DNA of 64,000 nt from the NCBI RefSeq assembly GCF_001425055.1, contig NZ_LMDK01000005.1:821-64820 (forward strand). Direction: 5' to 3'. The DNA comes from Pelomonas sp. Root1237. GTDB taxonomy: Bacteria; Pseudomonadota; Gammaproteobacteria; Burkholderiales; Burkholderiaceae_C. The first letter of the stretch is position 1, and every line of letters begins with the position of its first letter. Made by a program: the position numbers and the translations under genes. Under the pieces are notes generated by a model, which saw only the letters and a list, made by a program, of their open reading frames with translations, ran no database searches and was not told where the DNA came from. Positions 42,712 to 61,087 of this stretch are shown here, piece by piece.

Positions 42712-42714
42712 CGG

Positions 42715-44535: not shown

Positions 44536-44616
44536 CGTTCAGGCGGGACGTCCAACCTGCTGAGTGACGCCACACGCCATTCCGTTCCCCTTGCCGGCAG
44601 ACAGAGCTGCCGCAGG

Positions 44617-44640
44617 GAACTAAGCGGCGGCCCCAGTTAC
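44617..44640 (+). promoter_or_regulatory. Possible ECF-type promoter before tssA
   Basis: GGAAC, 15 bases, then GTTA lies 52 bp before the tssA start, in the 156-bp gap between the divergent kinase and tssA genes. GGAAC is a typical -35 element of ECF sigma factors and the spacing is close to the usual 16-17. The match is short and may be chance, but an ECF gene lies in the same cluster. Confidence 0.3.
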
Positions 44641-44691
44641 TTACCGCCCGAACTCCTGCCTGCCCTGATCGGCAAGCTCACCCGGACCACC

Positions 44692-45902: not shown

Positions 45903-46397
45903 ATGAGCAAGAGCAGCCAGAAATTCATCGCCCGCAACCGGGCCCCGCGGGTGCAGATCGAGTATGACGTCGAGCTCTACGGCGCCGAGAAGAAGGTGCA
46001 GCTGCCCTTCGTGATGGGCGTGATGGCCGACCTGTCCGGCAAGCCCGAGGACCCGCTGCCGCCGGTGGCCGACCGCAAGTTCCTCGAGATCGATGTCGAC
46101 AACTTCGACTCGCGCATGAAGTCCATGAAGCCGCGCGTCGCCTTCCAGGTCGAGAACACGCTGACCGGCGAGGGCAACCTGCCGGTGGACATCACCTTCG
46201 AGAGCATGGACGACTTCTCGCCCGCCGCCGTGGCGCGCAAGGTCGAAGGCCTGAACAAGCTGCTCGAGGCCCGCCAGCAACTGTCCAACCTGATCACCTA
46301 CATGGACGGCAAGAGCGGCGCCGGCGACCTGATCGCCAAGGTGCTGGCCGACCCGACGCTGCTCAAGACGCTGACCGACGCGCCCAAGTCGGAATAA
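45903..46397 (+). CDS. tssB: Type VI secretion sheath subunit TssB (VipA/ImpB)
   Basis: A 164-residue sheath protein that pairs with TssC to form the contractile tube. Family marks are SSQKFIARNRAPRVQIEYDVE, LPFVMGVMADLSG, LPPVADRKFLEIDVDNFDSRMKSMKPRVAF and LLEARQQLSNL. A strong ribosome site (aaggag) precedes the ATG. The 104-bp gap after tssA carries a 20-codon open frame of doubtful value (45816-45878). TagJ, encoded further on, is known to bind the TssB N-terminus in systems that have it. Confidence 0.96.
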   Translation: MSKSSQKFIARNRAPRVQIEYDVELYGAEKKVQLPFVMGVMADLSGKPEDPLPPVADRKFLEIDVDNFDSRMKSMKPRVAFQVENTLTGEGNLPVDITFESMDDFSPAAVARKVEGLNKLLEARQQLSNLITYMDGKSGAGDLIAKVLADPTLLKTLTDAPKSE

Positions 46398-46441
46398 GCC
46401 GCAGTTCATCCCAAGACACTGAAACGACCGGAGTTTCAAAC

Positions 46442-47935
46442 ATGACCCAAGCGGAACAGTCAGCATCGGCCCTGGCGGGCGTGACCTTCGAAGGCAATGA
46501 CTTCGCGGCACTGCTGAACAAGGAATTCAAGCCCAAGACCGAGGAGGCGCGCGGCGCCGTGGCGCAGGCCGTGCAGACGCTGGCCCAGCAGGCGCTGAGC
46601 AACACCACGCTGCTCAGCGACGACGCCGTCAAGACCATCGAGGCCATGATCGCGGCCATCGATAGCAAGCTCACCGAGCAGATCAACAAGATCATGCACC
46701 ACGAGGACTTCCAGAAGCTGGAATCCGCCTGGCGCGGCCTGCACTACCTCGTCAACAACACCGAGACCGACGAGCAGCTCAAGATCCGCGTGATGAATGT
46801 CTCCAAGACCGACCTTGGCAAGACGCTCAAGCGCTTCAAGGGCACGGCCTGGGACCAGTCGCCGCTGTTCAAGCGCCTGTACGAAGAGGAATACGGCCAG
46901 TTCGGCGGCGAGCCCTATGGCTGCCTGGTGGGCGACTACCACTTCGACCACACGCCCCCCGACGTCGAGCTGCTCGGCGAACTGTCCAAGATCGCCGCCG
47001 CCGCCCACGCGCCGCTGGTGACCGGTGCCGCGCCGAGCGTCATGCAGATGGAAAGCTGGCAGGAACTCGCCAACCCGCGCGATCTGACCAAGATCTTCAC
47101 GACGCCGGAGTACGCCGCCTGGCGGTCCCTGCGCGAGTCCGACGACGCCCGCTACCTGGCCCTGTGCATGCCGCGCTTCCTGTCGCGCGTGCCCTATGGC
47201 GCCAAGACCAGCCCCGTCGACGAGTTTGCCTTCGAGGAAGACACCGAGGGCGCCGACCACAGCAAGTACACCTGGTCCAACGCCGCCTATGCGATGGCGG
47301 TGAACATCAACAGTTCGTTCAAGCAGTACGGCTGGTGCTCGCGCATCCGCGGCATCGAATCCGGCGGCGCGGTGACCGGCCTGCCCACGCACACCTTCCC
47401 GACCGACGACGGCGGCGTGGACATGAAGTGCCCGACCGAGATCGCCATCTCCGACCGCCGCGAGGCCGAGCTGAGCAAGAACGGCTTCCTGTCGATGGTG
47501 CACCGCAAGAACAGTGACTTCGCGGCCTTCATCAGCGGCCAGTCGCTGCAAAAGCCCGCCGAGTACGACGACGCCGACGCGACCGCCAACGCCGCACTCG
47601 CGGCCCGCCTGCCCTATCTGTTCGCCTGCAATCGCTTCGCCCACTACCTGAAGTGCATCGTGCGCGACAAGGTCGGCTCCTTCAAGTCGCGCGACGCGAT
47701 GGAAGACTGGCTCAACAGCTGGATCCTGAACTACGTCGACGGTGACCCGATGAACTCGTCGGAAGAGACCAAGGCCAGCCGCCCGCTCGCGGCCGCCCAG
47801 GTCGAGGTCTCGGAAGTGGAAGGCGCACCGGGCTACTACCAGTCCAAGTTCTACCTGAAGCCGCACTACCAGCTCGAAGGCCTGACCGTGTCGCTGCGGC
47901 TGGTGTCCAAGCTGCCGTCCGAGAAGTCCGCCTAA
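46442..47935 (+). CDS. tssC: Type VI secretion sheath subunit TssC (VipB/ImpC)
   Basis: A 497-residue large sheath subunit. It carries the family blocks EAMIAAIDSKLTEQINKIMHHEDFQKLESAWRGLHYLV, PYGCLVGDYHFDHTPPDVELL, PRFLSRVPYG, FAHYLKCIVRDKVGS and the C-terminal HYQLEGLTVSLRLVSKLP, with normal length. TssB and TssC wrap the Hcp tube, and ClpV (tssH, 55154) recycles the contracted sheath. It starts 44 bp after tssB, with GGAG in front, and is followed by the canonical hcp gene. Confidence 0.97.
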   Translation: MTQAEQSASALAGVTFEGNDFAALLNKEFKPKTEEARGAVAQAVQTLAQQALSNTTLLSDDAVKTIEAMIAAIDSKLTEQINKIMHHEDFQKLESAWRGLHYLVNNTETDEQLKIRVMNVSKTDLGKTLKRFKGTAWDQSPLFKRLYEEEYGQFGGEPYGCLVGDYHFDHTPPDVELLGELSKIAAAAHAPLVTGAAPSVMQMESWQELANPRDLTKIFTTPEYAAWRSLRESDDARYLALCMPRFLSRVPYGAKTSPVDEFAFEEDTEGADHSKYTWSNAAYAMAVNINSSFKQYGWCSRIRGIESGGAVTGLPTHTFPTDDGGVDMKCPTEIAISDRREAELSKNGFLSMVHRKNSDFAAFISGQSLQKPAEYDDADATANAALAARLPYLFACNRFAHYLKCIVRDKVGSFKSRDAMEDWLNSWILNYVDGDPMNSSEETKASRPLAAAQVEVSEVEGAPGYYQSKFYLKPHYQLEGLTVSLRLVSKLPSEKSA

Positions 47936-48030
47936 GACAGTTGGGAGAACTCGCCGGCGCGGGAGCAGGACGGGTCATCTCTCACCACCACCACAACACC
48001 CGCGCTTTGAACCCCTAAGGAGATATCAAC

Positions 48031-48531
48031 ATGGCAGTCAATGCATTCCTCACCTTCTTCGACAAGGCCGATGGCGAGTCCATCCAGAAGGGCAAGGAAA
48101 AGTGGATCGAGATCCAGGGCTGGGACTGGGAAGTCGAAGCCGAGACCAGCTGGACCAAGGGCGGCGGCGCTTCCGTCGGCAAGCCCAACCCCGGCAAGAT
48201 GAACTGGGAGCACTACTTCGACACCTCGTCGACCGTGATCCTGGGCTATATCTGCACCGGCAAGGCCTTCCCCAAGGTCGAGCTGCAGATGATGAAGACC
48301 ACGGGCAGTGCCACGCCCGAGACCTACTTCACGATGACGATGGAAGGTTGCTTCATCACCAAGGTCAACCAGAGCGGCACCGAGGAAGGCAACGTCACGC
48401 AGAAGGTCGAAATGGTCTTCAAGACCGTCAAGATCGAATACAAGCCGCAGGACAACAAGACCGGCAAGCTGGGCGCGCCCAAGACGTACAACTGGGACAT
48501 TCCGGCTGGTACGGCTTCGCCGTCGGCATAA
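48031..48531 (+). CDS. hcp: Type VI secretion tube protein Hcp (TssD)
   Basis: A 166-residue Hcp, the subunit of the hexameric inner tube. MAVNAFLTFFDKADGESI, KWIEIQGWDWEVEAETS, NWEHYFDTSSTVILGYICTGKAFPKVELQMMKT, TMTMEGCFITKV and VEMVFKTVKIEYKPQD are the standard Hcp1 blocks. The ribosome site (aaggag, 9 bases before ATG) is among the strongest in the window, as expected for a highly made protein. The 95-bp gap before it may hold an extra promoter. It is followed by a hairpin element and then two divergent Hcp-like genes. Confidence 0.95.
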   Translation: MAVNAFLTFFDKADGESIQKGKEKWIEIQGWDWEVEAETSWTKGGGASVGKPNPGKMNWEHYFDTSSTVILGYICTGKAFPKVELQMMKTTGSATPETYFTMTMEGCFITKVNQSGTEEGNVTQKVEMVFKTVKIEYKPQDNKTGKLGAPKTYNWDIPAGTASPSA

Positions 48532-48565
48532 CGCGCTTGGTGGACGTCTTGTTCGTGTTCGCATT

Positions 48566-48688
48566 CCGGGCCGAACGCCGGGCCGCCCCAAGCCGGCCCG
48601 CGCAGGCGATGTGCCTGCGGGTCGAGCCCGCAGGCATCGCCGTCCCCTCGGGGGACCGGCCGGCGTACTCGGCGGACGAGGGGTCCAC
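48566..48688 (+). repeat. Multi-hairpin intergenic element, copy 2
   Basis: This copy fills most of the gap between hcp and the next gene. It has the GCCGGGCCG...CGGCCCG block, the central stem at 48605-48641 (GGCGATG, TG bulge, CCTGCGGG, loop, complement), the GTCCCC-TCG-GGGGAC hairpin and ends with ggacgaggggtccac directly at the ATG of the next gene. The last part therefore acts as its Shine-Dalgarno sequence. The hairpins may also reduce read-through or stabilise hcp mRNA. Confidence 0.8.
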
Positions 48689-49237
48689 ATGAGTCGTTCG
48701 AACATCTTCATGCAACTCATCACCGGCGCCGGGCCGGTGGTGGGCGAGGGCCTGCTCGAAGGTTGGGAAGGCTCGATCGAGCTGCTGGAGTTCGGCTGGG
48801 GCATGCAGGCCCTCAAGGACCCCAAGAGCAAAGCCAGCGGCCTGGCCGCAGCGGCTGCCTCCGCTGCAGCCTCGATGGCAGGGCTGGGTACGCCCGTCAG
48901 CATCAAGATGCAGCCGCTGACCTTCAAGAAGCGGTTTGACGTCGGCTCCTCGCAGATGCATTTCTGCCTGGACAACCACCTGCCCGTGCTCAGCGCGTCC
49001 ATCACGGTGCTGCACATCAAGCAGCAAGGCCGGGCCATCCATCAACCTGGCTTCACCGTCGTCTGTACCCAGGGCTACTTTGCCGACTGCACCCTGGAGG
49101 TGTCAGACGATGGCCTGTCCAAGGAGGTGAGGGAAAGCTGGACCCTCAACTTCAAGAACATCAAGATGATGTATCTGAAGACCCTCGGCAAGGACAACCT
49201 GCCCACGGCCCCCTTCTTCCACCCATTGGCCCTCTGA
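48689..49237 (+). CDS. Divergent Hcp-like protein 1
   Basis: A 182-residue protein with the Hcp layout rather than a close match: NIFMQLITGAGPVVGEGL, GSIELLEFGWGM, then FKKRFDVGSSQMHFCLDN, LPVLSASITVLH and WTLNFKNIKMMYLK. These correspond to the first strands, the FxF/D-AS helix region and the late strands of canonical Hcp. An alanine-rich insert (about residues 48-66) interrupts the first loop. The ATG is supplied by the hairpin element. It is joined by a TGATG overlap to the next Hcp-like gene. It may be a tube variant, tube cap or effector adaptor; this cannot be settled from sequence. Confidence 0.75.
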   Translation: MSRSNIFMQLITGAGPVVGEGLLEGWEGSIELLEFGWGMQALKDPKSKASGLAAAAASAAASMAGLGTPVSIKMQPLTFKKRFDVGSSQMHFCLDNHLPVLSASITVLHIKQQGRAIHQPGFTVVCTQGYFADCTLEVSDDGLSKEVRESWTLNFKNIKMMYLKTLGKDNLPTAPFFHPLAL

Positions 49238-50106
49238 TGTCCAACAACGGCGCCGACATCTTCCTGGTTCTGCTGCGCCCCACCCGCGTGCCGGTCGTGG
49301 GCGAAGCAGCGTCCGAAGGCTTCCAGGGGCAGATCCTGGTGGAGACGCTCAACTGGAAGCTGCACAACGAGGACGAGCGCAAGAACGCCAGCAAGGCGGC
49401 AGCGGCCTTCACCCTCGCGAGCGGCAGAGCAGACAAGCAAGGCAGCAACGAGTTGCGTGCGATGCATGCGGCCAGCGACGATTACCAGAAGCGGGACAAG
49501 AGGCTGCAGGAGTCTTTCGCGAAAGCCCAGCGTGGCGGCAATTTTTCCGAGGCAGACTGGAAAGCCCACCAGGACCAGCGCGATGCCCTCGGCGCGGCCT
49601 TCAACAAGAAGCTCGAAAGCATCGCCAGGGATCCGAACGCCTTCGCGCCTGCCGACCCGCAAAAAGCCGAAAAGGCGGCCACGCTGCAAGGCGAACGGGA
49701 GAAGCAGTACGCGGACCTCGAACGCAACCGCAATTTCGAGTTCACGTTCACCAAGCGGGTCGACATCGCCAGCACCCAGATGCTGAACTCGATGAAGGCG
49801 GGCAACATCTTCCCCTCGGGCACGCTCACCATCCACAGGCGCTCGGCGACGTTTCTGGACGGCACTTCGCTGATCTTCACCATCCAGAAGATCCGCCTGC
49901 TGGAATACGAGCTGGACGTGGTCGTGAACGAGACCATGACGGAGATGATGGAGAAGTGGACCTGCGAGTTCGGCTCGCTCGCCTACATCTACAAGAACCC
50001 GCCGTCGCACTACTCGCACAGCAACACCGGCCAGGCCGTCGCCAAGACGGCGTCGCAGAACACGACGCGCGCCTTCACGATGAAGAACATCGGCTCACCC
50101 ATCTAG
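49237..50106 (+). CDS. Divergent Hcp-like protein 2 with long helical insert
   Basis: A 289-residue protein beginning DIFLVLLRPTRVPVVGEA and GQILVETLNWKL, and continuing after an insert with FEFTFTKRVDIASTQMLNSMKAGNIFPSGTLTIHRR, FTIQKIRLLEYELDVV and EKWTCEFGSLAYIYK. The flanking parts fit the Hcp fold. The insert, about residues 50-163, is rich in Lys, Glu, Ala and Gln and probably forms a helical hairpin or coiled coil. The ATG overlaps the previous stop by one base (TGATG), so the two Hcp-like proteins are made together. No known name can be given. Confidence 0.75.
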   Translation: MSNNGADIFLVLLRPTRVPVVGEAASEGFQGQILVETLNWKLHNEDERKNASKAAAAFTLASGRADKQGSNELRAMHAASDDYQKRDKRLQESFAKAQRGGNFSEADWKAHQDQRDALGAAFNKKLESIARDPNAFAPADPQKAEKAATLQGEREKQYADLERNRNFEFTFTKRVDIASTQMLNSMKAGNIFPSGTLTIHRRSATFLDGTSLIFTIQKIRLLEYELDVVVNETMTEMMEKWTCEFGSLAYIYKNPPSHYSHSNTGQAVAKTASQNTTRAFTMKNIGSPI

Positions 50107-50112
50107 CTTCCC

Positions 50113-50682
50113 ATGGCCCTGACCAACTACCGGGACGTCAGCACCTCGATGAGCGACGTGTCGGCCGGCTTCCAGTTCGAGTTCTTCTGCGAGAAATGTG
50201 GCGAGAGCTCGCGCTCGGCCTTCAGGCCCTATCGCAAGGGCCAGATCACGGGCTGGCTGAGCCGTTTCGCCTTCATGTTCTACGACCTGAACAAGGCCAG
50301 CCGGGCCACCGGCGCGTTTGCCGAAGCCGGTGGCGGCAGCGCCAAGGCCGAGGCCCTGGCCGAAGCCATGGCCGCCGCGGCACCGCTGTACGAGAAATGC
50401 ACCGGCTGCCGCAAATGGGTAGGCCGCGAATGCTGGAACAGCAGCAGCAACAGCTGCCGCGACTGCGCCGCCCGTTCCGCGCTGGATGCGGGTTCGGCCA
50501 GCCAGGGCGCCGCCAGCGGGGGTGGCTCGGCCTGCCCCAACTGCCAGACGCCCAGCCAGGGCGGGCGCTTCTGCCATGAATGCGGCTTCGACATGGCCAG
50601 CACGCACAAGAGCTGCCCGGCCTGCGGCATCACCCTCTCGCGGCAAGCCCGCTTCTGCACGGACTGCGGCCATGGCTTCTGA
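50113..50682 (+). CDS. Multi-zinc-ribbon protein in the T6SS cluster
   Basis: A 189-residue protein with several CxxC pairs: C26/C29, C96/C99, C107, C115/C118, C141/C144, C154/C157, C168/C171 and C182/C185. The last four pairs form two typical short zinc ribbons (CPNCQ...FCHECG and CPACG...FCTDCG), like double-zinc-ribbon proteins. The N-terminal third contains an aromatic helix region (WLSRFAFMFYDLN). It starts 6 bp after the Hcp-like gene 2 and overlaps tagJ by 11 bp, so it is locked into the operon. It is not one of the standard Tss proteins; binding of protein partners or nucleic acid is possible but unproven. Confidence 0.8.
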   Translation: MALTNYRDVSTSMSDVSAGFQFEFFCEKCGESSRSAFRPYRKGQITGWLSRFAFMFYDLNKASRATGAFAEAGGGSAKAEALAEAMAAAAPLYEKCTGCRKWVGRECWNSSSNSCRDCAARSALDAGSASQGAASGGGSACPNCQTPSQGGRFCHECGFDMASTHKSCPACGITLSRQARFCTDCGHGF

Positions 50683-51514
50683 TCTCTCTCCCCAACAAGC
50701 CGCCGAAGAGCTACTCCGCGCCGGCGACCCGCGCGCCGCACTCGCCAAGCTGACCGAGGCCGTGCGCGCCAAGCCGGCCGATCCCAAGCTGCGCACCTTC
50801 ATGTCCCAGCTGCTCAGCGTGCTCGGCCAGTGGGAACGCGCCCACACCCAGCTCAATGTCGTCGCCGACATGGACAAGCTGGCCATCCCGATGCGCGAGA
50901 CCGTCGGCCACGCCATCCGCTGCGAGCTGCTGCGCGCCCAGGTGTTTTCCGGCAAGCGCACGCCGGTTGTCTTCGGCCAGCCCGAGGCCTGGGTGGCCCA
51001 GTTGATCGAATCTCTCAAGCAGCAGGCCGAGGGCAACCACCAGCTTGCGGCCGACCTCGCCACCAAGGCCTTCGAGGCCGCGCCAACGAGTGCGGGCAGC
51101 ATCGACGGCCAGCGCTTCGAGTGGCTGGCCGACGCCGATTCGCGCCTGGGCCCGGTGCTCGAGGTCTGCCTCAACGGCCACTACACCTGGGTGCCCTTCC
51201 AGCACCTGGCCAAGATTCATTTCGACGCGCCCGAGGACCTGCGCGACTGCGTCTGGATGCCGGCGCAGCTGAGCTTCACCAACGGCGGCAACAGCGTCGC
51301 CCTGGTGCCCACGCGCTACCCGGGCTCCGAGAAGAGCGAGGATGGCCTCATCAACCTGGCGCGCAAGACCGAATGGCAAGCACTGCCAGGCGAGGACCGC
51401 TATGCCGGCCTGGGCCAGCGCGTGCTGACCAGCGACATCGGCGACCACGACCTGATGGCCGTCAGAGAAATTCTCTTCGACGCCAGCGAGGCCACGCAGA
51501 CCGAAGGCAACTGA
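50672..51514 (+). CDS. tagJ: Type VI secretion accessory protein TagJ (ImpE/HsiE)
   Basis: A 280-residue protein with an N-terminal TPR-like part (SPQQAAEELLRAGDPRAALAKLTEAVRAKPADPKLRTFMSQLLSVLGQWERAHTQL; shown by AEELLRAGDPRAALAKL and LLSVLGQWERAHTQL) and the ImpE C-terminal domain (FEWLADADSRLGPVLEVCLNGHYTWVPF, VWMPAQLSFTNGG, ALVPTRYPGSE). The start ATG 50672 lies inside the end of the zinc-ribbon gene. TagJ/HsiE binds the N-terminal helix of TssB and is thought to tune ClpV-mediated sheath recycling. It overlaps tssE by one base (TGATG). Confidence 0.93.
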   Translation: MASDLSPQQAAEELLRAGDPRAALAKLTEAVRAKPADPKLRTFMSQLLSVLGQWERAHTQLNVVADMDKLAIPMRETVGHAIRCELLRAQVFSGKRTPVVFGQPEAWVAQLIESLKQQAEGNHQLAADLATKAFEAAPTSAGSIDGQRFEWLADADSRLGPVLEVCLNGHYTWVPFQHLAKIHFDAPEDLRDCVWMPAQLSFTNGGNSVALVPTRYPGSEKSEDGLINLARKTEWQALPGEDRYAGLGQRVLTSDIGDHDLMAVREILFDASEATQTEGN

Positions 51515-52050
51515 TGGCCAGCTTCGGTGCCCAGGACCGCCTCCAACCCTCGCTGCTGGACCGGCTCACCGACAACGATGCCAGCTCCAAGGTCGAGGCC
51601 CTCGAGGCCCGCGTACTGAGCCGCAAGCAGCTGCGTGAGGCCGTGCTGCGCGACCTCTCCTGGCTGTTCAACGCGGTGTGTGAAGAGCCGGACATCGGCA
51701 ACCGCAACGACCCCGAACGCACGGCGCTATGGAAGAGCCTGCCGCATGCCCGCGACTCGGTGCTGAATTTCGGCATCCTGCCCCTGACCGGGCAGACCAT
51801 GACCATCCACCAGTTCCCCCTCATCGAGGCCCAGGTGCGCCAGGCCATCATCCGCTTCGAGCCGCGACTGGACCCGGACACGGTGGAGGTGCGCATCGCC
51901 AACGACATGAGCACCGGCCTGCGCCCCACCAGCCTGCGCCTGACCATCAAGGGCCAGATGTGGAACCAGCCAGTGCCGCTGGAGTTGCTGCTCAGCGCTG
52001 ACGTAGACGTGGATACTGGTCAAGCCGCCGTGCGTGATATGCGCGGCTGA
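51514..52050 (+). CDS. tssE: Type VI secretion baseplate protein TssE (gp25-like)
   Basis: A 178-residue baseplate wedge protein. QPSLLDRLTDND, LREAVLRDLSWLFNAV, VLNFGILPLTGQT and the late FEPRLDPDTVEVRI are the gp25/TssE blocks that seed the sheath. The ATG overlaps the tagJ stop. It is followed by an inverted repeat before tssF rather than by the usual tight junction. Confidence 0.94.
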   Translation: MASFGAQDRLQPSLLDRLTDNDASSKVEALEARVLSRKQLREAVLRDLSWLFNAVCEEPDIGNRNDPERTALWKSLPHARDSVLNFGILPLTGQTMTIHQFPLIEAQVRQAIIRFEPRLDPDTVEVRIANDMSTGLRPTSLRLTIKGQMWNQPVPLELLLSADVDVDTGQAAVRDMRG

Positions 52051-52063: not shown

Positions 52064-52138
52064 GCCACAGAGACACAGAGGCACAGAGAAACTGAAGGAA
52101 GAGTCTCGTATTCCTCCGTGCCTCTGTGCCTCTGTGGC
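52064..52138. repeat. Inverted-repeat element between tssE and tssF
   Basis: Two 25-bp arms (52064-52088 and 52114-52138) built from CACAGAG units are complementary with only two mismatches and enclose a 25-base loop. The composition, CACAGAGACACAGAGGCACAGAG on one side, differs sharply from the GC-rich surroundings. Similar CACAGAG palindromes are scattered in many bacterial genomes, so this is probably a small non-coding mobile or REP-like repeat. It ends 29 bp before the tssF start and can form a strong RNA hairpin within the operon mRNA. Confidence 0.8.
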
Positions 52139-52167
52139 TGTGTTTCCCGGCTGCGTCGGAACCCCTG

Positions 52168-54039
52168 ATGGACCCCCGCCTCCTTCGCTACTACAACCAG
52201 GAACTGCGCTATCTCCGCGAGATGGGCGGCGAGTTCGCGCGCGAGTTCCCCAAGATCGCTGGCCGCCTGGGCATGGAAGGCCTGGAAGTCGCCGACCCCT
52301 ATGTCGAGCGCCTGCTCGAAGGCACGGCCTTCCTCGCAGCCCGCGTGCAGCTCAAGCAGGACGCCGAATTCCCCCAGCTTGCCCAGGCGCTGCTGGACAT
52401 GGTCTGCCCCAACCTCGGCGCGCCGATCCCGTCCATGCTGGTGGCCCAGCTCGAGCCGGCTCAGGACCCCAACCTGATTGCCGGCTTCACGCTGCCGCGC
52501 GGCAGCGCGCTGATGGGCGCGCGCACGCCGCTGGGGCCAACGCGCTGCGAGTTCCGCACCGCCCAGCCGGTCACGCTGACGCCCATCCGGGTCAGCCAGG
52601 TCGAGTACTTCCTCAGCGCCACCGACATCAATTTCAGCGGCCTGCCGCTGCGCGAGCGACCCAAGAGCGGCGTGCGTGTGCGCATGGAGCTGCCCAGCGG
52701 CATGAGCTTCTCGCGGCTGCCGCTGGACAGCCTGCGCTTCTTCATGGGCGGGCTGCAGGACGTGGCGCTGAAGCTGCACGAGCTCGCCACCTGCCGCTGC
52801 GTGGGCGTGCTGGCCGGGCCTGGTGGCAAGGAGGCTGCGGCCAAGCGCCAGTTCATCCCGGCCAGCCGCGTGCACCACGTCGGCCTGGCCGATGACGAGG
52901 CCATGCTGCCGGTGACGCTGCGCGGCCTGTCCGGCACGCGGCTGATGCAGGAGTACTTCGCCTTCCCGCAGCGCTTCCTGTTCATCGACGTGGCCGGCCT
53001 CAAGCCCAGCTTCGCCGCCTGCACGGGCAACAGCTTCGAGCTGGTGCTGCTGTTCGACCGCTACGAAGCCAGCCTGGAGGGTGGCGGCGAACCGGCCAAC
53101 TTCAGCCTGAATTGCGTGCCGGCCATCAACCTCTTCGAGCGCCGCGCCGAGCGCATCACGGTCGACGACAGCGCCACCGCCTTCCAGGTCATCCCCGACC
53201 GGCTGGCCGGCGCCGACTTCGAGGTGTTCGACGTCGCCTCGGTCACCGGCTTCTCCAGCGACACCGACGAGCTGCAGTTCCTGCCGCTGTTCGACGTGCC
53301 CCACGCCGACCCGGCCGGCGCCTCCGGCTATTTCAGCCTGCTGCGCGAGCCGCGTCTGGCCAGCGACCGCGCCAAGCGCGAGGGGCCGCGCTCGGCCTAT
53401 GTCGGCAGCGAGGTCTTTTTGTCCCTGGTCGACCTGCAGCGCGCGCCCTACCGGGCCGACCTGCGCCAGCTTGCCGCCAAGATCCGCTGCACCAACCGCG
53501 ACCTGCCGCTCTTCATGCCCGCCGGCCGCGATCATGGTGGCCTGACGCTGGAGACCCGTGCGCCCGTCGACCATGTCGCCGTCGTGGCCGGCCCGTCGCG
53601 GCCCGGCAGCGCGGCGCGCGAAGGCGCACTGGCCTGGCGGCTGCTGTCCCTGCTATCGCTGAACTACCTGTCCCTTGTCGACGAGGACCCCGAACGCGGT
53701 GCGCTGGCCCTGCGCGAACTGCTCGGCCTGTTCGGCCAAAGCTCCGGCGCCGGCCTGCTGCGGCAGATCGAAGGCGTGCGCTCCGTCACCACGCTGCCCA
53801 TCGTGCGCCGCCATCCGGCGCCAGGCCCCATCGCCTTCGGCCGCGGGTTGGAGGTGCAGCTGACGGTGGACGAACTCTCCTTCGAAGGTGGCAGCGCGAC
53901 GCTGCTGGGCGCCGTGCTGCACCACTACTTCAGCCGCCACGTGTCGATGAACAGCTTTGTCCAGACGCTGCTGGTCTCGCGCACCCGCGGCGAGTTGAAG
54001 CGCTGGCAACCGCTGCCGGGCGCCAGGGCAGTGTTGTGA
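52168..54039 (+). CDS. tssF: Type VI secretion baseplate protein TssF (ImpG/VasA)
   Basis: A 623-residue baseplate subunit. ATG 52168 gives the family start MDPRLLRYYNQELRYLREMGGEFAREFPKIAGRLGM; an upstream ATG at 52126 lies inside the inverted repeat and is unlikely. Other blocks are DPYVERLLEGTAFLAARVQLKLD-like (VERLLEGTAFLAARVQLKQD), FPQLAQALLDMV, PCLSM-like PIPSMLVAQLEP, and the end HHYFSRHVSMNSFVQTLLVS. TssF, TssG, TssE and TssK build the baseplate wedge. The stop overlaps the tssG GTG start. Confidence 0.95.
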   Translation: MDPRLLRYYNQELRYLREMGGEFAREFPKIAGRLGMEGLEVADPYVERLLEGTAFLAARVQLKQDAEFPQLAQALLDMVCPNLGAPIPSMLVAQLEPAQDPNLIAGFTLPRGSALMGARTPLGPTRCEFRTAQPVTLTPIRVSQVEYFLSATDINFSGLPLRERPKSGVRVRMELPSGMSFSRLPLDSLRFFMGGLQDVALKLHELATCRCVGVLAGPGGKEAAAKRQFIPASRVHHVGLADDEAMLPVTLRGLSGTRLMQEYFAFPQRFLFIDVAGLKPSFAACTGNSFELVLLFDRYEASLEGGGEPANFSLNCVPAINLFERRAERITVDDSATAFQVIPDRLAGADFEVFDVASVTGFSSDTDELQFLPLFDVPHADPAGASGYFSLLREPRLASDRAKREGPRSAYVGSEVFLSLVDLQRAPYRADLRQLAAKIRCTNRDLPLFMPAGRDHGGLTLETRAPVDHVAVVAGPSRPGSAAREGALAWRLLSLLSLNYLSLVDEDPERGALALRELLGLFGQSSGAGLLRQIEGVRSVTTLPIVRRHPAPGPIAFGRGLEVQLTVDELSFEGGSATLLGAVLHHYFSRHVSMNSFVQTLLVSRTRGELKRWQPLPGARAVL

Positions 54040-55094
54040 GCGCAAAGCCTGAGCCATCGATCTTCGACGCGCTGGCCGCGCGCCCGGGCCGCTTCGACCT
54101 CTTCCAGGCGCTGCGCCGCATCGAGGCCGCCCACACCGACAAACCGCGCCTGGGCGACGCGCTGCGCCCGGGCGACGAGCCGGTCCGCTTCGCCAGCGAA
54201 CCGGCGCTGAACTTCGCGCCGACGGCCATCACCAAGCTGGCACCCAACGACCACGGCCCGCCACGCCTGGTGCAGCGGGTGCTGAGCCTGTTCGGCCCCA
54301 ATGGTGCCCTGCCCACGCACCTGACCGAATACGCCCGCGAGCGGGCCATGCACCACGGCGACCGCACCTTCGCGGCCTTTGCCGACATGCTGCTGCATCG
54401 CTTCGGCCTGCTCTTCTACCGGGCCTGGGCGCGCGCCAACCCGGTGGTGGGCATGGATCGCAGCCGCGACGCGCCCATCGTGCGCCATGTGGGCGCCCTC
54501 GTCGGCCTGGCCGAGCCGTCGCTGCGCGAGCGCGACGCCCTGGGCGACTTCCCCAAGCTCTATTTCGCCGGCCGCCTGGCTCGCTCGGCGCGCGACGCCG
54601 ATGGCCTGCAGAGCTGGATCGCGCTGCGCTTTCGCGTGCCGGCCCTGGTGCAGCAGTTCAGCGGCCACTGGATGCCGCTGGGGCTCGAGGAGCGCACCCG
54701 TCTCGTCAAGCACGACGGCGTGGCCCTGGGTCGCGGTGCCGTGCTGGGCCGCCAGGTCTGGGATGTGCAGCACAAGTTCCGCATCGAGATCGGCCCCCTG
54801 GGCTGGGAGGCATTCCAGGCCTTCCTGCCGTCGGGCCCGCATCTGCCGGCCCTGCAGGCCATGGTGAGGCAATACGTCGGCCAGGAGTTCGCTTGGGATG
54901 TGCGCCTGCGCCTCAAACCCGCCGAGGTGCCGGCCTGGTCGCTGGGCAAAAAACCCGGCGTCGGCATGCTGGGGCGCAGCGCCTGGCTCAACAGCCAGCG
55001 CCCGCGCAAGCGGGCCGACCAGCTGCTGATGAACGTCGAGAGCATCTGCCGGGGGGCGCTGAAACCCTCGCTTGCCCCCAAGCATCAGATGTAG
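54036..55094 (+). CDS. tssG: Type VI secretion baseplate protein TssG (ImpH/VasB)
   Basis: A 352-residue baseplate subunit starting at GTG 54036, which overlaps the tssF stop (GTGA) and gives a normal family length. The blocks FDLFQALRRIEAAH, PVRFASEPALNFAPTAI, FGPNGALPTHLTEYARER, FADMLLHRFGLLFYRAW and GRQVWDVQHKFRIEIGPL are typical. It ends 59 bp before tssH. Confidence 0.94.
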   Translation: MSAKPEPSIFDALAARPGRFDLFQALRRIEAAHTDKPRLGDALRPGDEPVRFASEPALNFAPTAITKLAPNDHGPPRLVQRVLSLFGPNGALPTHLTEYARERAMHHGDRTFAAFADMLLHRFGLLFYRAWARANPVVGMDRSRDAPIVRHVGALVGLAEPSLRERDALGDFPKLYFAGRLARSARDADGLQSWIALRFRVPALVQQFSGHWMPLGLEERTRLVKHDGVALGRGAVLGRQVWDVQHKFRIEIGPLGWEAFQAFLPSGPHLPALQAMVRQYVGQEFAWDVRLRLKPAEVPAWSLGKKPGVGMLGRSAWLNSQRPRKRADQLLMNVESICRGALKPSLAPKHQM

Positions 55095-55153: not shown

Positions 55154-57829
55154 ATGACTGACATCAGCCGCCAAGCCCTGTTCGGCAAGCTCAACCCGCT
55201 GGCCTACAAATCCATCGAAGGCGCCACCGTCTTCTGCAAGCTCAGGGGCAACCCTTATGTCGAGCTGGTGCACTGGATCACCCAGCTGCTGGAGAACAAC
55301 GAGTCCGACGTCAGCGCCATCGTGCGCCACTACGGTCTGGACGCCGCCGCGCTTGCGCGTGACGTGACGACGGCGCTGGACCGCCTGCCGCGCGGGTCGA
55401 CGGCCATCAGCGACTTCTCCGAGCACATCACCCACGCCATCCAGCAGGGCTGGGTCTATGCCACGCTGATGTACGGCGATGCCCAGGTGCGCAGCGGCCA
55501 CCTGCTGCTGGCGCTGCTCTCCACGCGCACGCTGCGTGAAGCGCTGTTCGGCATCTCGCGCCAGTTCGAGAAGATCAAGGCCGATGACCTGGCCGACAAG
55601 CTGCAAAGCCTGATCGGCAAGACCGGCGAAGCGGGCCTGGGCGCCACCGACGGCAGCGCGTTGAACAGCGCGCAACCCGGCCAAGCCGAGGGCGCGATGG
55701 CGCCCGCCGCCATGGGCCGCCAGGAGGCACTGAAGAAGTTCACCGTCGACCTGACCGAGAAGGCGCGCAAGGGCGAGATCGATCCGGTGACCGGTCGCGA
55801 CGACGAGATCCGCCAGATCGTCGACATCCTGATGCGCCGCCGCCAGAACAACCCGCTGCTGACCGGCGAGGCCGGCGTCGGCAAGACGGCCGTGGTGGAA
55901 GGCTTTGCGCTGCGCCTGGCGCGCGGCGACGTGCCGCCGCCCATGCAGGGCGTGACACTGCTGACGCTGGACATCGGCCTGCTGCAGGCCGGCGCGTCGA
56001 TGAAGGGCGAGTTCGAGCAGCGCCTGCGCCAGGTCATCGACGAGGTGCAGGGCAGCCCCACGCCCATCATCCTGTTCATCGACGAGATCCACACGCTGGT
56101 GGGCGCGGGCGGCGCCGCCGGCACCGGCGACGCCGCCAACCTGCTCAAGCCGGCGCTCGCGCGCGGCAACCTGCGCACGGTCGGCGCCACCACCTGGGCC
56201 GAGTACAAGAAGTACATCGAGAAGGACCCGGCCCTGACCCGCCGCTTCCAAACCGTGCAGGTCGAGGAGCCCGACGAGAAGAAGGCCATCCTGATGCTGC
56301 GCGGCGTGGCCACGGTGCTGGAGAAGCACCACAAGGTCCAGTTGCTCGACGAGGCCATCGAGGCGGCGGTCAAGCTGTCGCACCGCTACATCCCGGCCCG
56401 CCAACTGCCCGACAAGGCCGTCAGCCTGCTCGACACCGCCTGCGCCCGCGTCGCCGTCAGCCAGCACGCGATGCCGGCCGAGGTCGAGGACTGCAAACGC
56501 CGCATCGAGTCGCTGGAGATCGAGCAGGGCATCATCGGTCGCGAGGCCCAGGTGGGCGTGCATATCGGCGACCGCGGCGTGTCGGTGGAAGAGAAGCTGG
56601 CCAACGAGCGCGCGCGCCTCGCGACGCTGGAAGTGCGCTGGCAGCAGGAGAAGGATGTCGTCGCCAAGATACTGGAGCTGCGCGCCAAGTTGCGCGGTGA
56701 TGGCCAGCCGGTCGATGAAGCCGCCTCTGCGGCACCCGACCGCGACGCGCTGCTCGTCGAGATGCACGCCGCCCAGGCCCAGCTAGCCGAGCTGCAAGGC
56801 GACCACCCGCTGATCCTGCCCTCGGTCGACGCGCAGGCCGTGGCCAGCGTCGTCGCTGACTGGACCGGCATCCCCGTCGGCCGCATGGTCAAGAACGAGC
56901 TGGAAGCCGTGCTGCGCCTGGGCGCCACGCTGGGCCAGCGCGTCATCGGCCAGCAGCACGGCCTGGACATGATCGCCCGGCGCATCCAGACCTCGCGCGC
57001 CAAGCTCGACAACCCCAACAAGCCCATCGGCGTGTTCATGCTGTGCGGCACCTCGGGCGTGGGCAAGACCGAGACGGCCCTGGCGCTGGCCGAGTCGCTG
57101 TACGGCGGCGAGCAGAACGTCATCACCATCAACATGAGCGAGTACCAGGAGTCGCACACCGTCTCCACGCTCAAGGGCGCGCCTCCGGGCTATGTGGGCT
57201 ACGGCGAGGGCGGCGTGCTGACCGAGGCCGTGCGCCGCCGGCCCTACAGCGTCGTGCTGCTGGACGAGGTCGAGAAGGCCCACCCCGACGTGCACGAGCT
57301 GTTCTTCCAGGTCTTCGACAAGGGCTGGATGGAGGACGGCGAAGGCCGCATGATCGACTTCAAGAACACCATCATCCTGCTGACCAGCAACGTGGGTTCC
57401 GAGCTCATCATGAACATGTGCCGCGACCCCGAGCTGCTGCCCGACCCCGAGTCGCTGGCCACAGCGCTGACCGAGCCGCTGCAGAAGGTCTTCCCGCCGG
57501 CGCTGCTGGGCCGCATCGTCACGATTCCCTACTACCCGCTGAGCGATGAGATGCTGGCCCGCATCGTGCGTCTGCAGCTCGGCCGCATCGTCAAGCGCGT
57601 CGCCGAGAACCACCGCATCCCGTTCGAGTACAGCGACGCAGCGGTGGAGCTCATCGTCAAGCGCTGCAACAACGCGGAGTCGGGCGGCCGCATCATCGAC
57701 GCCATCCTGACCAACACGGTGCTGCCCAAGGTGTCGATTGAATACCTGTCGCGCACGGCGTCGGGCCAGCCGCTGCAGAAGGTCAGCCTCGGCGTGGCCG
57801 ATGGCGACTTCTCCTACGCCTTTGATTGA
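55154..57829 (+). CDS. tssH: Type VI secretion AAA+ ATPase TssH (ClpV)
   Basis: An 891-residue ClpV unfoldase that disassembles contracted TssB-TssC sheath. Order of parts: N-domain (about residues 1-155, FGKLNPLAYKSIEGATVFCKLRGNPYVELVHW), first AAA domain with Walker A GEAGVGKT (238-245) and Walker B LFIDEIHTL, a ClpB-like middle coiled coil (about 440-540), and a second AAA domain with Walker A GTSGVGKT (632-639) and Walker B VVLLDEVEKAH. Arginine finger and sensor regions look intact. GAGGAG lies before the ATG. It is followed by the third hairpin element and vgrG. Confidence 0.97.
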   Translation: MTDISRQALFGKLNPLAYKSIEGATVFCKLRGNPYVELVHWITQLLENNESDVSAIVRHYGLDAAALARDVTTALDRLPRGSTAISDFSEHITHAIQQGWVYATLMYGDAQVRSGHLLLALLSTRTLREALFGISRQFEKIKADDLADKLQSLIGKTGEAGLGATDGSALNSAQPGQAEGAMAPAAMGRQEALKKFTVDLTEKARKGEIDPVTGRDDEIRQIVDILMRRRQNNPLLTGEAGVGKTAVVEGFALRLARGDVPPPMQGVTLLTLDIGLLQAGASMKGEFEQRLRQVIDEVQGSPTPIILFIDEIHTLVGAGGAAGTGDAANLLKPALARGNLRTVGATTWAEYKKYIEKDPALTRRFQTVQVEEPDEKKAILMLRGVATVLEKHHKVQLLDEAIEAAVKLSHRYIPARQLPDKAVSLLDTACARVAVSQHAMPAEVEDCKRRIESLEIEQGIIGREAQVGVHIGDRGVSVEEKLANERARLATLEVRWQQEKDVVAKILELRAKLRGDGQPVDEAASAAPDRDALLVEMHAAQAQLAELQGDHPLILPSVDAQAVASVVADWTGIPVGRMVKNELEAVLRLGATLGQRVIGQQHGLDMIARRIQTSRAKLDNPNKPIGVFMLCGTSGVGKTETALALAESLYGGEQNVITINMSEYQESHTVSTLKGAPPGYVGYGEGGVLTEAVRRRPYSVVLLDEVEKAHPDVHELFFQVFDKGWMEDGEGRMIDFKNTIILLTSNVGSELIMNMCRDPELLPDPESLATALTEPLQKVFPPALLGRIVTIPYYPLSDEMLARIVRLQLGRIVKRVAENHRIPFEYSDAAVELIVKRCNNAESGGRIIDAILTNTVLPKVSIEYLSRTASGQPLQKVSLGVADGDFSYAFD

Positions 57830-57858: not shown

Positions 57859-57983
57859 CCGGGCCGAGCGCCGGGCCGCTCCCAAGCCGGCCCGCCAGGC
57901 GATGTGCTTGTGGCTCAATGCCGCAAGCATCGCCGTCCCCTCGGGGGACCGGTCGATGTACTCATCGGACGAGGGGCCGACAC
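57859..57983 (+). repeat. Multi-hairpin intergenic element, copy 3
   Basis: This copy lies between tssH and vgrG. It shows the CGGGCCG blocks, the GAGCG-CGCTC hairpin, the central stem at 57898-57934 (GGCGATG, TG bulge, CTTGTGGC, loop TCAAT, complement), the GTCCCC-TCG-GGGGAC hairpin, a CGATG-TACT-CATCG hairpin and the terminal ggacgagggg that serves as the vgrG ribosome site. It is about 80% identical by eye to copy 2. Confidence 0.8.
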
Positions 57984-60548
57984 ATGTCTAGTGTGATGTC
58001 CATCACCACCAAGCTCGGTGGTGACAAGTTGCTGGTGCTGCGCATGGAGGGCCGGGAGCAACTGGGAGCGCTGCCCGAGTGGCAGGTCGACCTGGTCGGC
58101 AATGTCAGCCTGCTGGGCGTGCGCGAGTCCATCGACCTGCACGCCCTGCTGGGCTCGCGTGCCAATGTCAGCATCGAGCATGGCGCCAAGCGTCACTTCA
58201 ATGGTTTCATCACCGAAGTCCAGCGCGGTGAACGCCATGGCCGCTTTGACTCCTTCCGCATCACCATGCGGCCCTGGACCTGGTTCGCCACGCGCACGCG
58301 CAACTCCAAGGTGTTCCAGAACAAGAGCGTGAAGGACATCGTCACCGCCGTCCTCACGCCCTACAGCGCCGACTTCGCCTGGCGGCTGCAGGACGCCGCG
58401 GTCTACAAGCCGCTCGAGTACTGCGTGCAGTACCAGGAATCGGACTTCGACTTCGTCAGCCGTTTGCTGGAAGAGTTCGGCATCTACTATTTCTTCGAGC
58501 ACACCAGCACCACCCACACCCTGGTGCTGATCGACTCGATGGGCAAGCACAAGGCCAAGACGGGCGACAAGACCGTCAAATGGTCCCACAAGCTCGATGC
58601 CACCAAGCCCACCCTCGTCGACTGGAAGATGGTCGAGGAGGTGCATTCGGTCAAGGCCGTTGTGCGCGACTACGACTACCTCGCGACGGCGTCTGCCATC
58701 CAGCAGGAGCACAGCGCGCTGCCCACGGCGGCGACCGCCAAGCTCGGTGACGCCGAGGTCTATGAGTTCCCGGCGCGTGCGGTGCAAAACCAGGTCAAGC
58801 CCGACGCGCAGCCGACCGCAGCGGCCGCCATTCGCGTCGCCAAGATGCGGCTGGAAGAGCTGCAGTCGCTGCAGCAGATCTACACCGGCACCACCAACTG
58901 CAACGACATCACGGTGGGCGCCACCTTCGATCTCGAAGACGCCCTCAATGCGGCCGACGACGACAGCTACCTGATCGTCGGCATGAATTTCCACGCCGAG
59001 TTCGCCGACCACGAGGCCATCGACGATCTCAGGTCCCTGCCGCGCCGCCGCGACGGCGTGATCGCCAATCTCATGTGCATCAGCACGGGCGGCAATGCCT
59101 TCCGCCCGCAGCGCCGCACGCCGCGGCCCATCATGTACGGGCCGCAGACGGCCATCGTCGTCGGCGCCTCGGGCAACGAGGTGGAGACCGACAAGCACGG
59201 CCGCATCAAGGTGCAGTTCCACTGGGACCGCCTGGGCGAGAACAACGAAAACAGCTCCTGCTTCGTGCGCCTGTCCCAGCCCTGGGCGGGCAAGGGCATG
59301 GGGCTGTGGATGATCCCGCGCGTCGGCCACGAGGTGGTCGTCAGCTTCATCGGCGGCGACCCCGACCGACCCCTCATCACGGGCTCGGTGCACAACGACA
59401 TCAACACGCCCATCTATCCCCTGCCCGCCAATTCCGACATCAGCGGCTGGCGCACCCACTCGACCAAGAACGGCGCGGCCGACGCCCGCCACGAACTGCG
59501 TTTCGACGACAAGACGGGCAAGGAATACGTCTGGCTGCAGTCGCAGAAGAACTTCCATCGCCACGTGAAGGAAGACGCCTTCGACTGGATCGAGATGAAC
59601 GAGACCAAGAAGGTCAAGCTCACGCGCAAGGAGGTCGTCGGCGAGAACTGGTATGTCAACGTCGGCAAGGACGTCATGCACGACCTCGGCAAGGACTTGC
59701 ACACCAAGGTCGCCGGTGACATCTTCACCACGGGTGCGGCCACCTACCAGCTCAAGCTTGAGAAAGACTTCAACGCCAAGGTCGGTGCCGACTACGGGCT
59801 TGACGTCACCGGCAAGACGGCCGTCAAGGCCGGCGGCGACATCAACCTGCAAAGCGGCGGCGCGGGCAACTTCAAGACGACCGGCAACCTGGTCGGCGAG
59901 GCCGGTGCCAAGCTGTCGCTGAAGGCCACAGCCGACCTGTTGATGCAAGCCGTCAACATCAAGGCCAAGGGCAGCGCCGAGATCGTGCTGGAGGCCACGG
60001 CCGGCATCAAGATCGTCTGCGGCGGCTCGGTCATCACGCTGGGCCCGGCGGGCGTCACCATCGACGGCCCCCTCGTCAAGGTCAACTGTGGCGGTGGCGG
60101 CGGCTCCGCCGGCGCAGCCGAGAGCGCGGCCGCGGCCGAGCCCAAGGCGCCGGAAGACGCCATGAACCAGGAACTGCTGACGTCCGCCAAGGCCACGGAC
60201 TACGACAAGCTTTTTGAAGACCCCTTGACCGTCGGCCAAGAGGCGCCAAACACCGCCGCCGCGGCCAATGCGAGCGCGGACGCCGCAGCAGCGGCCAAGG
60301 CCGCCGCTGAAGCCGCCGCGGCCGCCGCCGCCGCTGCGGCCCGTGCGGCCAAGATCCGCGCTGCCGCCCTCGCCGGCGCTGCCGCCGCCCTCGCCGCAGG
60401 AGGCGCCGCAGCGGCTGCCTTGGCCGCGGCCGCGGCCGGCGGCGGAGGCGGGGCGGAGGACAACGAGGACGACGCGAAAAACGCCGACGCAGCCGCGCCA
60501 CCTCCCGACGACGCCGCAGGTCCCGAGGGCGGCGGAGGGCCGGCTTGA
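57984..60548 (+). CDS. vgrG: Type VI secretion spike protein VgrG (TssI) with Ala/Gly-rich tail
   Basis: An 854-residue spike protein. The gp27-like part includes YCVQYQESDFDFVSRLLEEFGIYYFFEH, the central gp5 OB-like part RPIMYGPQTAIVVGASGNEVETDKHGRIKVQFHWDR (ends RPIMYGPQTAIV and GRIKVQFHWDR) and SQPWAGKGMGLWMIPRVGHEVVVSF, then the beta-helix/DUF2345 region up to about residue 700. Beyond it lies a 150-residue low-complexity tail, almost pure alanine near residues 755-826 with glycine and acidic runs at the end. The tail may bind a PAAR protein or effector. ATG 57984 is set by the hairpin element's ggacgagggg. It overlaps the DUF4123 gene. Confidence 0.93.
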   Translation: MSSVMSITTKLGGDKLLVLRMEGREQLGALPEWQVDLVGNVSLLGVRESIDLHALLGSRANVSIEHGAKRHFNGFITEVQRGERHGRFDSFRITMRPWTWFATRTRNSKVFQNKSVKDIVTAVLTPYSADFAWRLQDAAVYKPLEYCVQYQESDFDFVSRLLEEFGIYYFFEHTSTTHTLVLIDSMGKHKAKTGDKTVKWSHKLDATKPTLVDWKMVEEVHSVKAVVRDYDYLATASAIQQEHSALPTAATAKLGDAEVYEFPARAVQNQVKPDAQPTAAAAIRVAKMRLEELQSLQQIYTGTTNCNDITVGATFDLEDALNAADDDSYLIVGMNFHAEFADHEAIDDLRSLPRRRDGVIANLMCISTGGNAFRPQRRTPRPIMYGPQTAIVVGASGNEVETDKHGRIKVQFHWDRLGENNENSSCFVRLSQPWAGKGMGLWMIPRVGHEVVVSFIGGDPDRPLITGSVHNDINTPIYPLPANSDISGWRTHSTKNGAADARHELRFDDKTGKEYVWLQSQKNFHRHVKEDAFDWIEMNETKKVKLTRKEVVGENWYVNVGKDVMHDLGKDLHTKVAGDIFTTGAATYQLKLEKDFNAKVGADYGLDVTGKTAVKAGGDINLQSGGAGNFKTTGNLVGEAGAKLSLKATADLLMQAVNIKAKGSAEIVLEATAGIKIVCGGSVITLGPAGVTIDGPLVKVNCGGGGGSAGAAESAAAAEPKAPEDAMNQELLTSAKATDYDKLFEDPLTVGQEAPNTAAAANASADAAAAAKAAAEAAAAAAAAAARAAKIRAAALAGAAAALAAGGAAAAALAAAAAGGGGGAEDNEDDAKNADAAAPPPDDAAGPEGGGGPA

Positions 60549-61087
60549 ACGCTGCCGCTCTGGCCACGGCCCAGATCCGATCAGCACTGTGGGACCGGCC
60601 GGACGGGCGCGTGCATGCCGTCGTCGACGGTGGTGTCATCCCCGGCCTGCTGGAACGGCTGCAGGCCGGGCAGTCCGTCGGCTGGGACTGCCTGCAGCGC
60701 GGCGCCCTCAAGCCCGAGGCCGCCGCGCAGGCGGCCTACATCGTCGAGCTGCAACCCGAGGCCGATCTCACCCGTTGGTTGCTCGGTGAAGCCTGCACCG
60801 CCTTCGAGGGATGGGGTGTGCTGATGACGTCCAACCGGCCGCTGCTCGCCATGCGCGAGCACAGCCGTGACCTCGCGGAGGTGCGCACGCCCGAGGGCCG
60901 CCGCCGGCCCTGGCGCTGGTGGGACCCCGAGCTGCTGGCCCTGCTGCTGCCCGGCCTCGCGCCGTCGCAGCTCGACGCCTTCTTCGCGGCCGGGCAGCAG
61001 CTTGTCTGCCCGGCCGCGAAGCGCTGGACCTGGTGGCAGCGCCTGAACGGCGTGCTGGACAGCCAAGCCCGGGAGCGGGTGAACTGA
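60545..61087 (+). CDS. DUF4123 T6SS effector adaptor/chaperone
   Basis: A 180-residue protein starting at TTG 60545, which overlaps the vgrG stop (TTGA); a GGCGGAGGG ribosome site precedes it. The pattern VHAVVDGGVIPGLLERL, YIVELQPEADLTRWLLGEAC, GWGVLMTSNRPLLAMREHSRDL and RRRPWRWWDPELLALLLPGL is that of DUF4123 (Tap/TEC) proteins, which load effectors onto VgrG. Its place right after vgrG is standard for the family and implies that a cognate effector is encoded just downstream. Confidence 0.88.
   Translation: MNAAALATAQIRSALWDRPDGRVHAVVDGGVIPGLLERLQAGQSVGWDCLQRGALKPEAAAQAAYIVELQPEADLTRWLLGEACTAFEGWGVLMTSNRPLLAMREHSRDLAEVRTPEGRRRPWRWWDPELLALLLPGLAPSQLDAFFAAGQQLVCPAAKRWTWWQRLNGVLDSQARERVN

Follow-up and report, generated by a model that had tools for sequence, protein, structure and literature searches.

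Between tssC and tagJ in the core operon of a type VI secretion system (T6SS) of Pelomonas sp. Root1237, a canonical gene for the tube protein Hcp (hcpA) is followed by two very divergent genes, hcpB and hcpC, and by a gene encoding a zinc-ribbon protein (here Zn), all four running in one direction within the window, that is, the whole 64,000-nucleotide stretch of contig NZ_LMDK01000005.1 that was analyzed. Judged by sequence profiles and a structural model, HcpB and HcpC are Hcp homologues, and they would be specialized paralogues of the tube subunit. We tentatively favor the view that they form a specialized, non-repeating ring where the HcpA tube meets VgrG, with Zn as an assembly factor. 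Strains or systems with several Hcp proteins, Hcp fused to toxins and Hcp heterohexamers are already known; the core-operon trio hcpB-hcpC-Zn appears to be a new variation on this diversity, and a full-text literature search, from which subscription papers were largely absent, returned no description of this trio within a core operon.

An earlier note on this DNA, made by reading the sequence, had described a canonical hcp, two divergent Hcp-like genes and a zinc-ribbon gene packed tightly between tssC and tagJ; coordinates and Pfam matches agree with that description (Table 1), and the motifs quoted in it are present, GSIELLEFGWGM in HcpB and TKRVDIASTQMLNSM in HcpC. The hcpB stop codon overlaps the hcpC start (TGATG), and Zn and tagJ overlap by 11 bases. 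Both divergent proteins pass the curated cut-off of Pfam T6SS_HCP (PF05638; 23.5 bits), and among their relatives this family is matched at E<=0.01 by 22 of 23 HcpB rows and by 23 of 23 HcpC rows. Single-sequence searches of the PDB with HcpB and HcpC gave nothing relevant, but profile searches succeeded, the HcpC profile matching a solved Hcp structure at 2.5e-17. In its AlphaFold2 model HcpC folds as an Hcp barrel, and four helices are inserted in the loop through which stacked rings are joined in another Hcp; Hcp chains take ranks 1-17 among its fold matches (scores 14.7-18.2). Tube proteins of extracellular contractile injection systems (eCIS) and phages also occur among these matches, with scores too close together to separate: two rows are baseplate proteins of the Photorhabdus virulence cassette (PVC), with a root-mean-square deviation above 8 Å, and chains from the main tube of these particles score 9.5-10.0, which differs little. 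The Hcp beta-barrel fold was thus found as the note had supposed, for HcpC in the AlphaFold2 model and for HcpB by profiles; the note had also considered that the folds might be unrelated to Hcp, or that the genes might be well-known, separately named T6SS subunits, and the searches made revealed neither. Against NCBIfam TIGR03344 (cut-off 58.9 bits) HcpB gave no match, HcpC 14.6 bits and HcpA itself only 50.2 bits; in PHROGs no match was obtained for HcpB and HcpC, one uncharacterized family for HcpA and weak families for Zn; PADLOC contained no match for the three block proteins, and a plasmid search none for HcpC or Zn.

A scan of genome contigs with the Zn profile identified 27 loci, a lower bound because the scan rests on two peptide patterns. 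The hosts comprise Roseateles/Pelomonas, Aquabacterium, Piscinibacter, Rubrivivax, Rhizobacter and Pseudorhodoferax, metagenome-assembled genomes (MAGs) labelled Burkholderiales or Burkholderiaceae, and two further MAGs labelled 'Proteobacteria' (L040) and 'Methylotenera' (L020), the latter probably mis-binned, as it nearly equals the Roseateles puraquae locus L021 (HcpC identical at 273 of 277 positions). The order tssC-hcpA(1-2)-hcpB-hcpC-Zn-tagJ is found in 24/24 Zn loci with upstream sequence, mostly from named Burkholderiales (L034, L042 and L043, which start at or within Zn, fall outside this count), and six Zn loci carry two hcpA copies. This recurring order indicates that the block is more than chance, and it bears out the co-occurrence with T6SS that the earlier note had looked to for support.

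The setting of the block was compared across genome draws. In the family of the window, tagJ is present in 20 of 120 genomes, which divide into six with the full block, Zn and three or more hcp (own genome included), eight with two hcp and no Zn (in one an unidentified frame separates the two, and another sits at a contig end), two with one hcp and four with another layout, in which Hcp-like matches before tagJ are faint at most (up to 21 bits) and the stretch read has no tssC match. Class-wide, tagJ is present in 19 of 321 genomes; besides the window's own, these provide 18 loci, nine with a single hcp in the order tssC-hcp-tagJ, one with two hcp, six in which tssC adjoins tagJ with no hcp, and two unresolved within 3.4 kb. 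The statement of the note that standard clusters carry one hcp at this place thus stands class-wide (nine with one and one with two, of ten resolvable loci) and fails within the family, where it applies to two of 20 tagJ genomes. With HcpC as the sole query, six of the 120 family genomes were recovered, own included; the other five are three true blocks, one two-hcp locus and one genome (G059) whose match covers only the helical linker and is presumably due to chance. Phylum-wide, HcpC was found in one of 398 genomes, the own one. At E<=0.001, hits to the Zn profile occurred in 43 of 299 family genomes, mostly as short zinc-ribbon matches; at E<=2.7e-28, the level used here, 16 loci remain. 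In 14 of them (own included) hcpC and hcpB precede Zn, one is truncated by its contig end, and one is a remote relative described below. Phylum-wide at E<=1e-10, Zn was found in one of 299 genomes, again the own one. These counts are not additive, since genomes of the family draw overlap the named loci (G062=L036, G068=L027, G084=L029, G116=L032). At four loci of family genomes (L097, L099, L103 and L104) the frame before tagJ scores only 9-21 bits against Hcp profiles, with no tssC match in the stretch read; these frames are possibly still more divergent Hcp-like genes.

In a quick, unrooted tree of 81 rows with several long branches, from which L017, L019, L020, L022, L026 and L031 were left out, HcpA, HcpB and HcpC each occupy one side of a branch (support by the Shimodaira-Hasegawa-like approximate likelihood ratio test 100, 98 and 92, respectively), and the additional Hcp from loci with two hcp genes groups as a separate set (support 89) between the HcpB/HcpC pair and the HcpA-type genes. 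Profile-profile comparison with hhalign points the same way: HcpB and HcpC match each other with 99.8% probability (3.8e-28) and HcpA with 98.5% and 97.9%, so that by sequence HcpB and HcpC are closer to each other than either is to HcpA. These relationships fit, and do not prove, an older state with HcpA and one second Hcp; a later split of the latter, at loci that have Zn, would have given rise to HcpB and HcpC.

The two paralogues are also the least conserved of the gene products compared. Mean pairwise identities over 22 loci (21 for TssF; 20 for TssG, TssH and VgrG), with the near-copies L017 and L020 and the fragments L026, L034, L042 and L043 left out, are 0.86 for TssC, 0.85 for TssB, 0.82 for TssH, 0.68 for TagJ, 0.63 for TssF, 0.61 for HcpA, 0.60 for TssG, 0.58 for TssE, 0.53 for Zn and 0.45 for VgrG, and 0.32 for HcpB and 0.28 for HcpC, the two lowest of the 12 genes; L017 is a near-copy of the window (HcpC identical at 286 of 289 positions) and L020 one of L021. 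Against L018, L019, L021, L022 and L023, the ratio of nonsynonymous to synonymous differences per site (pN/pS) is 0.26-0.32 for HcpB, 0.13-0.33 for Zn and 0.28-0.41 for the HcpC core, low values that mark these frames as constrained coding sequence. In HcpC compared with five close relatives, pN is 0.11-0.14 in the core and 0.51-0.61 in the insert; pN/pS of the insert (0.79-1.23) is blurred by saturation and gapped alignment, and positive selection is not claimed.

The insert lies in the loop between strands 2 and 3, which mediates ring stacking in Hcp1 of Burkholderia pseudomallei according to the accessible part of PMC4650826; in avian pathogenic Escherichia coli (APEC), Hcp homologues with different loops differ in function and serve different effectors, as stated in excerpts of PMC5874247. 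In HcpA this loop has 30 residues and carries GxG[AS][SA]VG in 23/23 rows. The HcpB and HcpC rows, read by eye, lack this motif and have loops of other lengths, 23-72 residues in HcpB and 20-174 in HcpC (23 rows each), and so do not have the loop of the HcpA-type main-tube Hcp of these loci. In the 11 rows (of 23) that make up the clade of the window, the HcpB loop contains a hydrophobic segment rich in Ala and Gly (best 19-residue hydropathy 0.86-1.54), and a long insert extends the HcpC loop to 107-174 residues, a pairing that may reflect a single evolutionary event. The hcpB gene of L041 (8506-9204) has a 72-residue loop with a long glycine/alanine hydrophobic run (hydropathy 1.54), which suggests an Hcp paralogue with a membrane-active segment.

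Zn is a double zinc ribbon protein (PF12773; 33.7 bits vs a cut-off of 27.3), and its cysteines 141, 144, 154, 157, 168, 171, 182 and 185 are invariant in 24 rows. Its AlphaFold2 model is poor (mean predicted local distance difference test score 68.1), and Foldseek with this poor model gave no match at E<=0.001. A remote relative (G659; L110:7311-7973, minus strand) scores 100 bits, adjoins an AsmA-family gene and also matches Prok-RING_2 at 2e-5, and the 14 kb read around it matched neither tssC nor tagJ; with such a relative away from T6SS, the Zn family may have originated outside these systems.

Co-variation between the proteins was assessed from tree distances at 20 loci, with core genes and clade regressed out and 300 permutations. 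The values are 0.47 for HcpA-HcpB, 0.40 for HcpB-VgrG and 0.36 for HcpC-VgrG (0/300 permutations each), 0.30 for HcpB-HcpC, 0.15 for HcpA-VgrG (31/300) and 0.09 for HcpA-HcpC. For Zn they are 0.37 with TssG and 0.36 with TssE (0/300 each), 0.28 with HcpB and 0.25 with HcpC (1/300 each), 0.14 with HcpA and -0.03 with TagJ. Within clades, HcpB-HcpC and HcpA-HcpB both reach 0.61, followed by HcpB-VgrG (0.45), HcpA-HcpC (0.35), HcpC-VgrG (0.34) and HcpA-VgrG (0.27), and Zn gives 0.42 with TssG, 0.38 with TssE, 0.33 with HcpC and 0.30 with HcpB. Thirteen pairs were tried in two ways, and an earlier version without clade correction had given higher values. Across 25 loci the hcpB-hcpC gap is the narrowest in the block and the hcpA-hcpB gap the widest (median 95 bases, compared with 9 for hcpB-hcpC, 24 for hcpC-Zn and 39 for Zn-tagJ), and in the window it forms strong hairpins. 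These hairpins are a possible attenuator, and a wide hairpin-forming gap would fit lower expression of HcpB and HcpC; z <= -2.0 is reached in only 12 of the 25 loci (mononucleotide shuffles), and Rfam has no match in 46000-52000.

The altered stacking loop, the fast divergence beside a conserved HcpA, the co-occurrence with Zn and the co-variation with VgrG and HcpA would together be best explained by a non-repeating start ring. On this reading, HcpB and HcpC would be low-copy proteins, not spare copies of the main tube subunit, and would build one or two dedicated rings, probably of mixed composition, where the HcpA tube begins next to VgrG. On one side such a ring would fit the HcpA stack; the face with the altered loops (in the clade of the window, the HcpC helical insert and the HcpB hydrophobic segment) would point to the VgrG/baseplate side and be free to vary between species, and Zn would be a dedicated helper that assembles the ring or docks it on the baseplate. 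We infer all of this, from ring formation, mixed composition, low copy number and position to function and the role of Zn. Several observations weigh against it. Long inserts are absent from 12 of the 23 rows, where the hydropathy maximum of HcpB is 0.22 and the HcpC loop has 20-53 residues; five loci (L018-L022) have unstructured hcpA-hcpB gaps of 22-24 bases; Zn does not co-vary with VgrG (0.12, 41/300; within clades -0.05, 200/300); and the co-variation as a whole is weak, a lead and not proof. In addition, VgrG is held to start the Hcp tube alone (available portion of PMC8262886), so that tubes in general can do without an extra start ring.

The main rival, a possibility that we consider somewhat unlikely, is that HcpB and HcpC form a hetero-oligomeric ring, not tied to any one position in the tube, to which particular effectors would be recruited, with Zn as a loading chaperone. 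That these two proteins are specialized Hcp paralogues is common to this and to the start-ring reading. A cargo ring has a precedent in the Hcp2-Hcp3 heterohexamer of Bacteroides fragilis, with and without the effector Bte1 (titles of PDB entries 9vnd and 9vne; PMC13323088, seen in part), and it would account for the lowest identities among the 12 genes and for the fast HcpC insert, as expected for a surface meeting changing partners; the link of loops to effectors in APEC (PMC5874247, in the excerpts cited above) is in its favor too. However, rings with so large a helical insert in their stacking loop should pack poorly in the middle of a tube, sheath assembly in P. aeruginosa is arrested by a 30-kDa protein added to cargo (PMC8262886, in the portion available), and the block contains no effector gene. 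It is improbable that the genes are diverging duplicates mixed randomly into the tube or used under other conditions, with Zn as a regulator: two-hcp loci are common in the family and hcpA is doubled in six Zn loci, so duplication is frequent here, but 24/24 loci retain the two genes in the same order and under constraint, and their stacking loop is not conserved. Delivery of the HcpC insert or the HcpB hydrophobic segment as a toxic domain is very improbable: Hcp with extra effector domains are known (PMC10433429, in part), the HcpB segment is Ala/Gly-rich and one of 23 HcpB rows matches C19orf12-like (0.0028), but the Pfam matches of HcpB and HcpC of the window and of 23 relatives each include no toxin family, the addition is internal, no spare frame annotated as immunity lies between the packed genes, and HcpB and HcpC are both present in all 24 loci. 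Of the proposal in the earlier note, the Hcp fold and the co-occurrence with T6SS have stood; that the block encodes a modified tube or tip, or an effector-loading device, is what we infer from them.

The surrounding T6SS appears near-complete (Table 1): the cluster also has a TssA-like frame and a DUF4123 protein, and past the window end follow Fha, a PP2C phosphatase, TssK, TssL-OmpA, TssM and TagF. TssJ had no Pfam match among the frames scanned, so completeness is not fully shown. The tssA frame (42415-45798, 1127 amino acids) carries ImpA_N at residues 785-901, which become 30-146 when counted from 44680, so the real start is probably near 44680. The region 60545-63709, 3' of vgrG, is a likely effector/immunity place: a DUF4123 protein, of an effector adaptor family, is followed by frames 60919-62826 and 62729-63709, neither with a Pfam match. 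After tagF (L009:15341-17254, about 74521-76434 in window numbering), a 637-amino-acid frame matches VipA over residues 51-144 (1.4e-5) and VipB over 228-496 (1.1e-32), with 30% identity to the cluster's own TssC over 291 residues; it is predicted to be a divergent TssB-TssC-like sheath paralogue in one frame, and there could be a link between this specialized sheath paralogue and the adjacent specialized Hcp. Elsewhere in the genome, one further Hcp-domain match (L002; C1:628081-628461, minus strand; 1.8e-22) belongs to a 341-residue frame in which a signal-like stretch precedes the Hcp domain and the C-terminal VPEPASALLLLGGLAALAALRPRRRA resembles a PEP-CTERM sorting signal.

Table 1. Coordinates in the window of the hcpA-hcpB-hcpC-Zn block and of the T6SS genes around it
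Feature	Position	Strand	Basis
tssB (VipA)	45903..46397	+	PF05591 6.6e-59
tssC (VipB)	46442..47935	+	PF05943 3.3e-135, PF18945 5e-43
hcpA, canonical Hcp tube protein, 166 amino acids	48031..48531	+	PF05638 1.5e-26
hcpA-hcpB gap, strong hairpins	48532..48688	+	minimum free energy -95.7 kcal/mol, z -3.39 (200 dinucleotide shuffles)
hcpB, divergent Hcp paralogue, 182 amino acids, ATG start 48689	48689..49237	+	PF05638 4e-5, 24.4 bits; profile to solved Hcp 1y12, 9e-16
hcpC, divergent Hcp paralogue, 289 amino acids, four-helix insert residues 45-161	49237..50106	+	PF05638 1.7e-6, 28.8 bits
Zn, zinc-ribbon protein, 189 amino acids, companion of hcpB-hcpC	50113..50682	+	DZR 4e-8; conserved cysteines; synteny
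tagJ (ImpE)	50672..51514	+	PF07024 1.2e-42
frame holding tssE (gp25), true start inside frame	50830..52050	+	PF04965 residues 267-381, 1.5e-17
tssF	52126..54039	+	PF05947 1.2e-199
frame with tssG in 3' half	53112..55094	+	PF06996 residues 325-626
tssH (ClpV-like ATPase)	55154..57829	+	AAA_2, AAA_lid_9, ClpB_D2-small; name from domains and position
vgrG	57918..60548	+	Phage_GPD 1.9e-75, Gp5_trimer_C, Phage_base_V

The gene order of the H1-T6SS of Pseudomonas aeruginosa, tssB-tssC-hcp1-tagJ-tssE, represents the tagJ-type systems with one hcp; the order tssC-hcp-tagJ-tssE, found in the nine class-wide loci, is common to these and to the system described here, but they are without HcpB, HcpC and Zn, which here sit between hcp and tagJ. 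The two-hcp tagJ clusters of the same family likewise have a second divergent Hcp before tagJ, with one extra Hcp instead of two, no Zn and their own set in the tree. In B. fragilis, as here, one T6SS has several Hcp paralogues, and there, judging from the titles of 9vne and 9vnd, a mixed ring has been solved with and without effector; for HcpB and HcpC, what is seen of such a pairing is their nearness to each other in sequence and in gene position. Hcp1, Hcp2A and Hcp2B of APEC differ in the same strand 2-3 loop as the paralogues of the block (PMC5874247), but, in the excerpts of that paper, they are divided between two T6SS clusters of a single strain, whereas the paralogues here are neighbors in one core operon with Zn.

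A single repeating protein is the usual picture of the T6SS tube, and a trio kept in the core operon over several genera implies a tube with distinct segments. The most specific form of the start-ring reading, a true tube initiator in one T6SS lineage, in which HcpB and HcpC would together build a ring that separates VgrG from the HcpA tube, fits spike or cargo through its fast-changing helical domain and is placed by a dedicated zinc-ribbon protein, is doubtful; if true, T6SS tubes would have a defined first ring, as is the case for phage tails and eCIS particles. In the eCIS PVC and the antifeeding prophage (AFP), the tube-like proteins at the baseplate end are Pvc5 and Afp5. Naming all such genes just 'Hcp' masks a likely division of labor, and the block would be a natural system for studying first-ring formation on VgrG and the choice of cargo.

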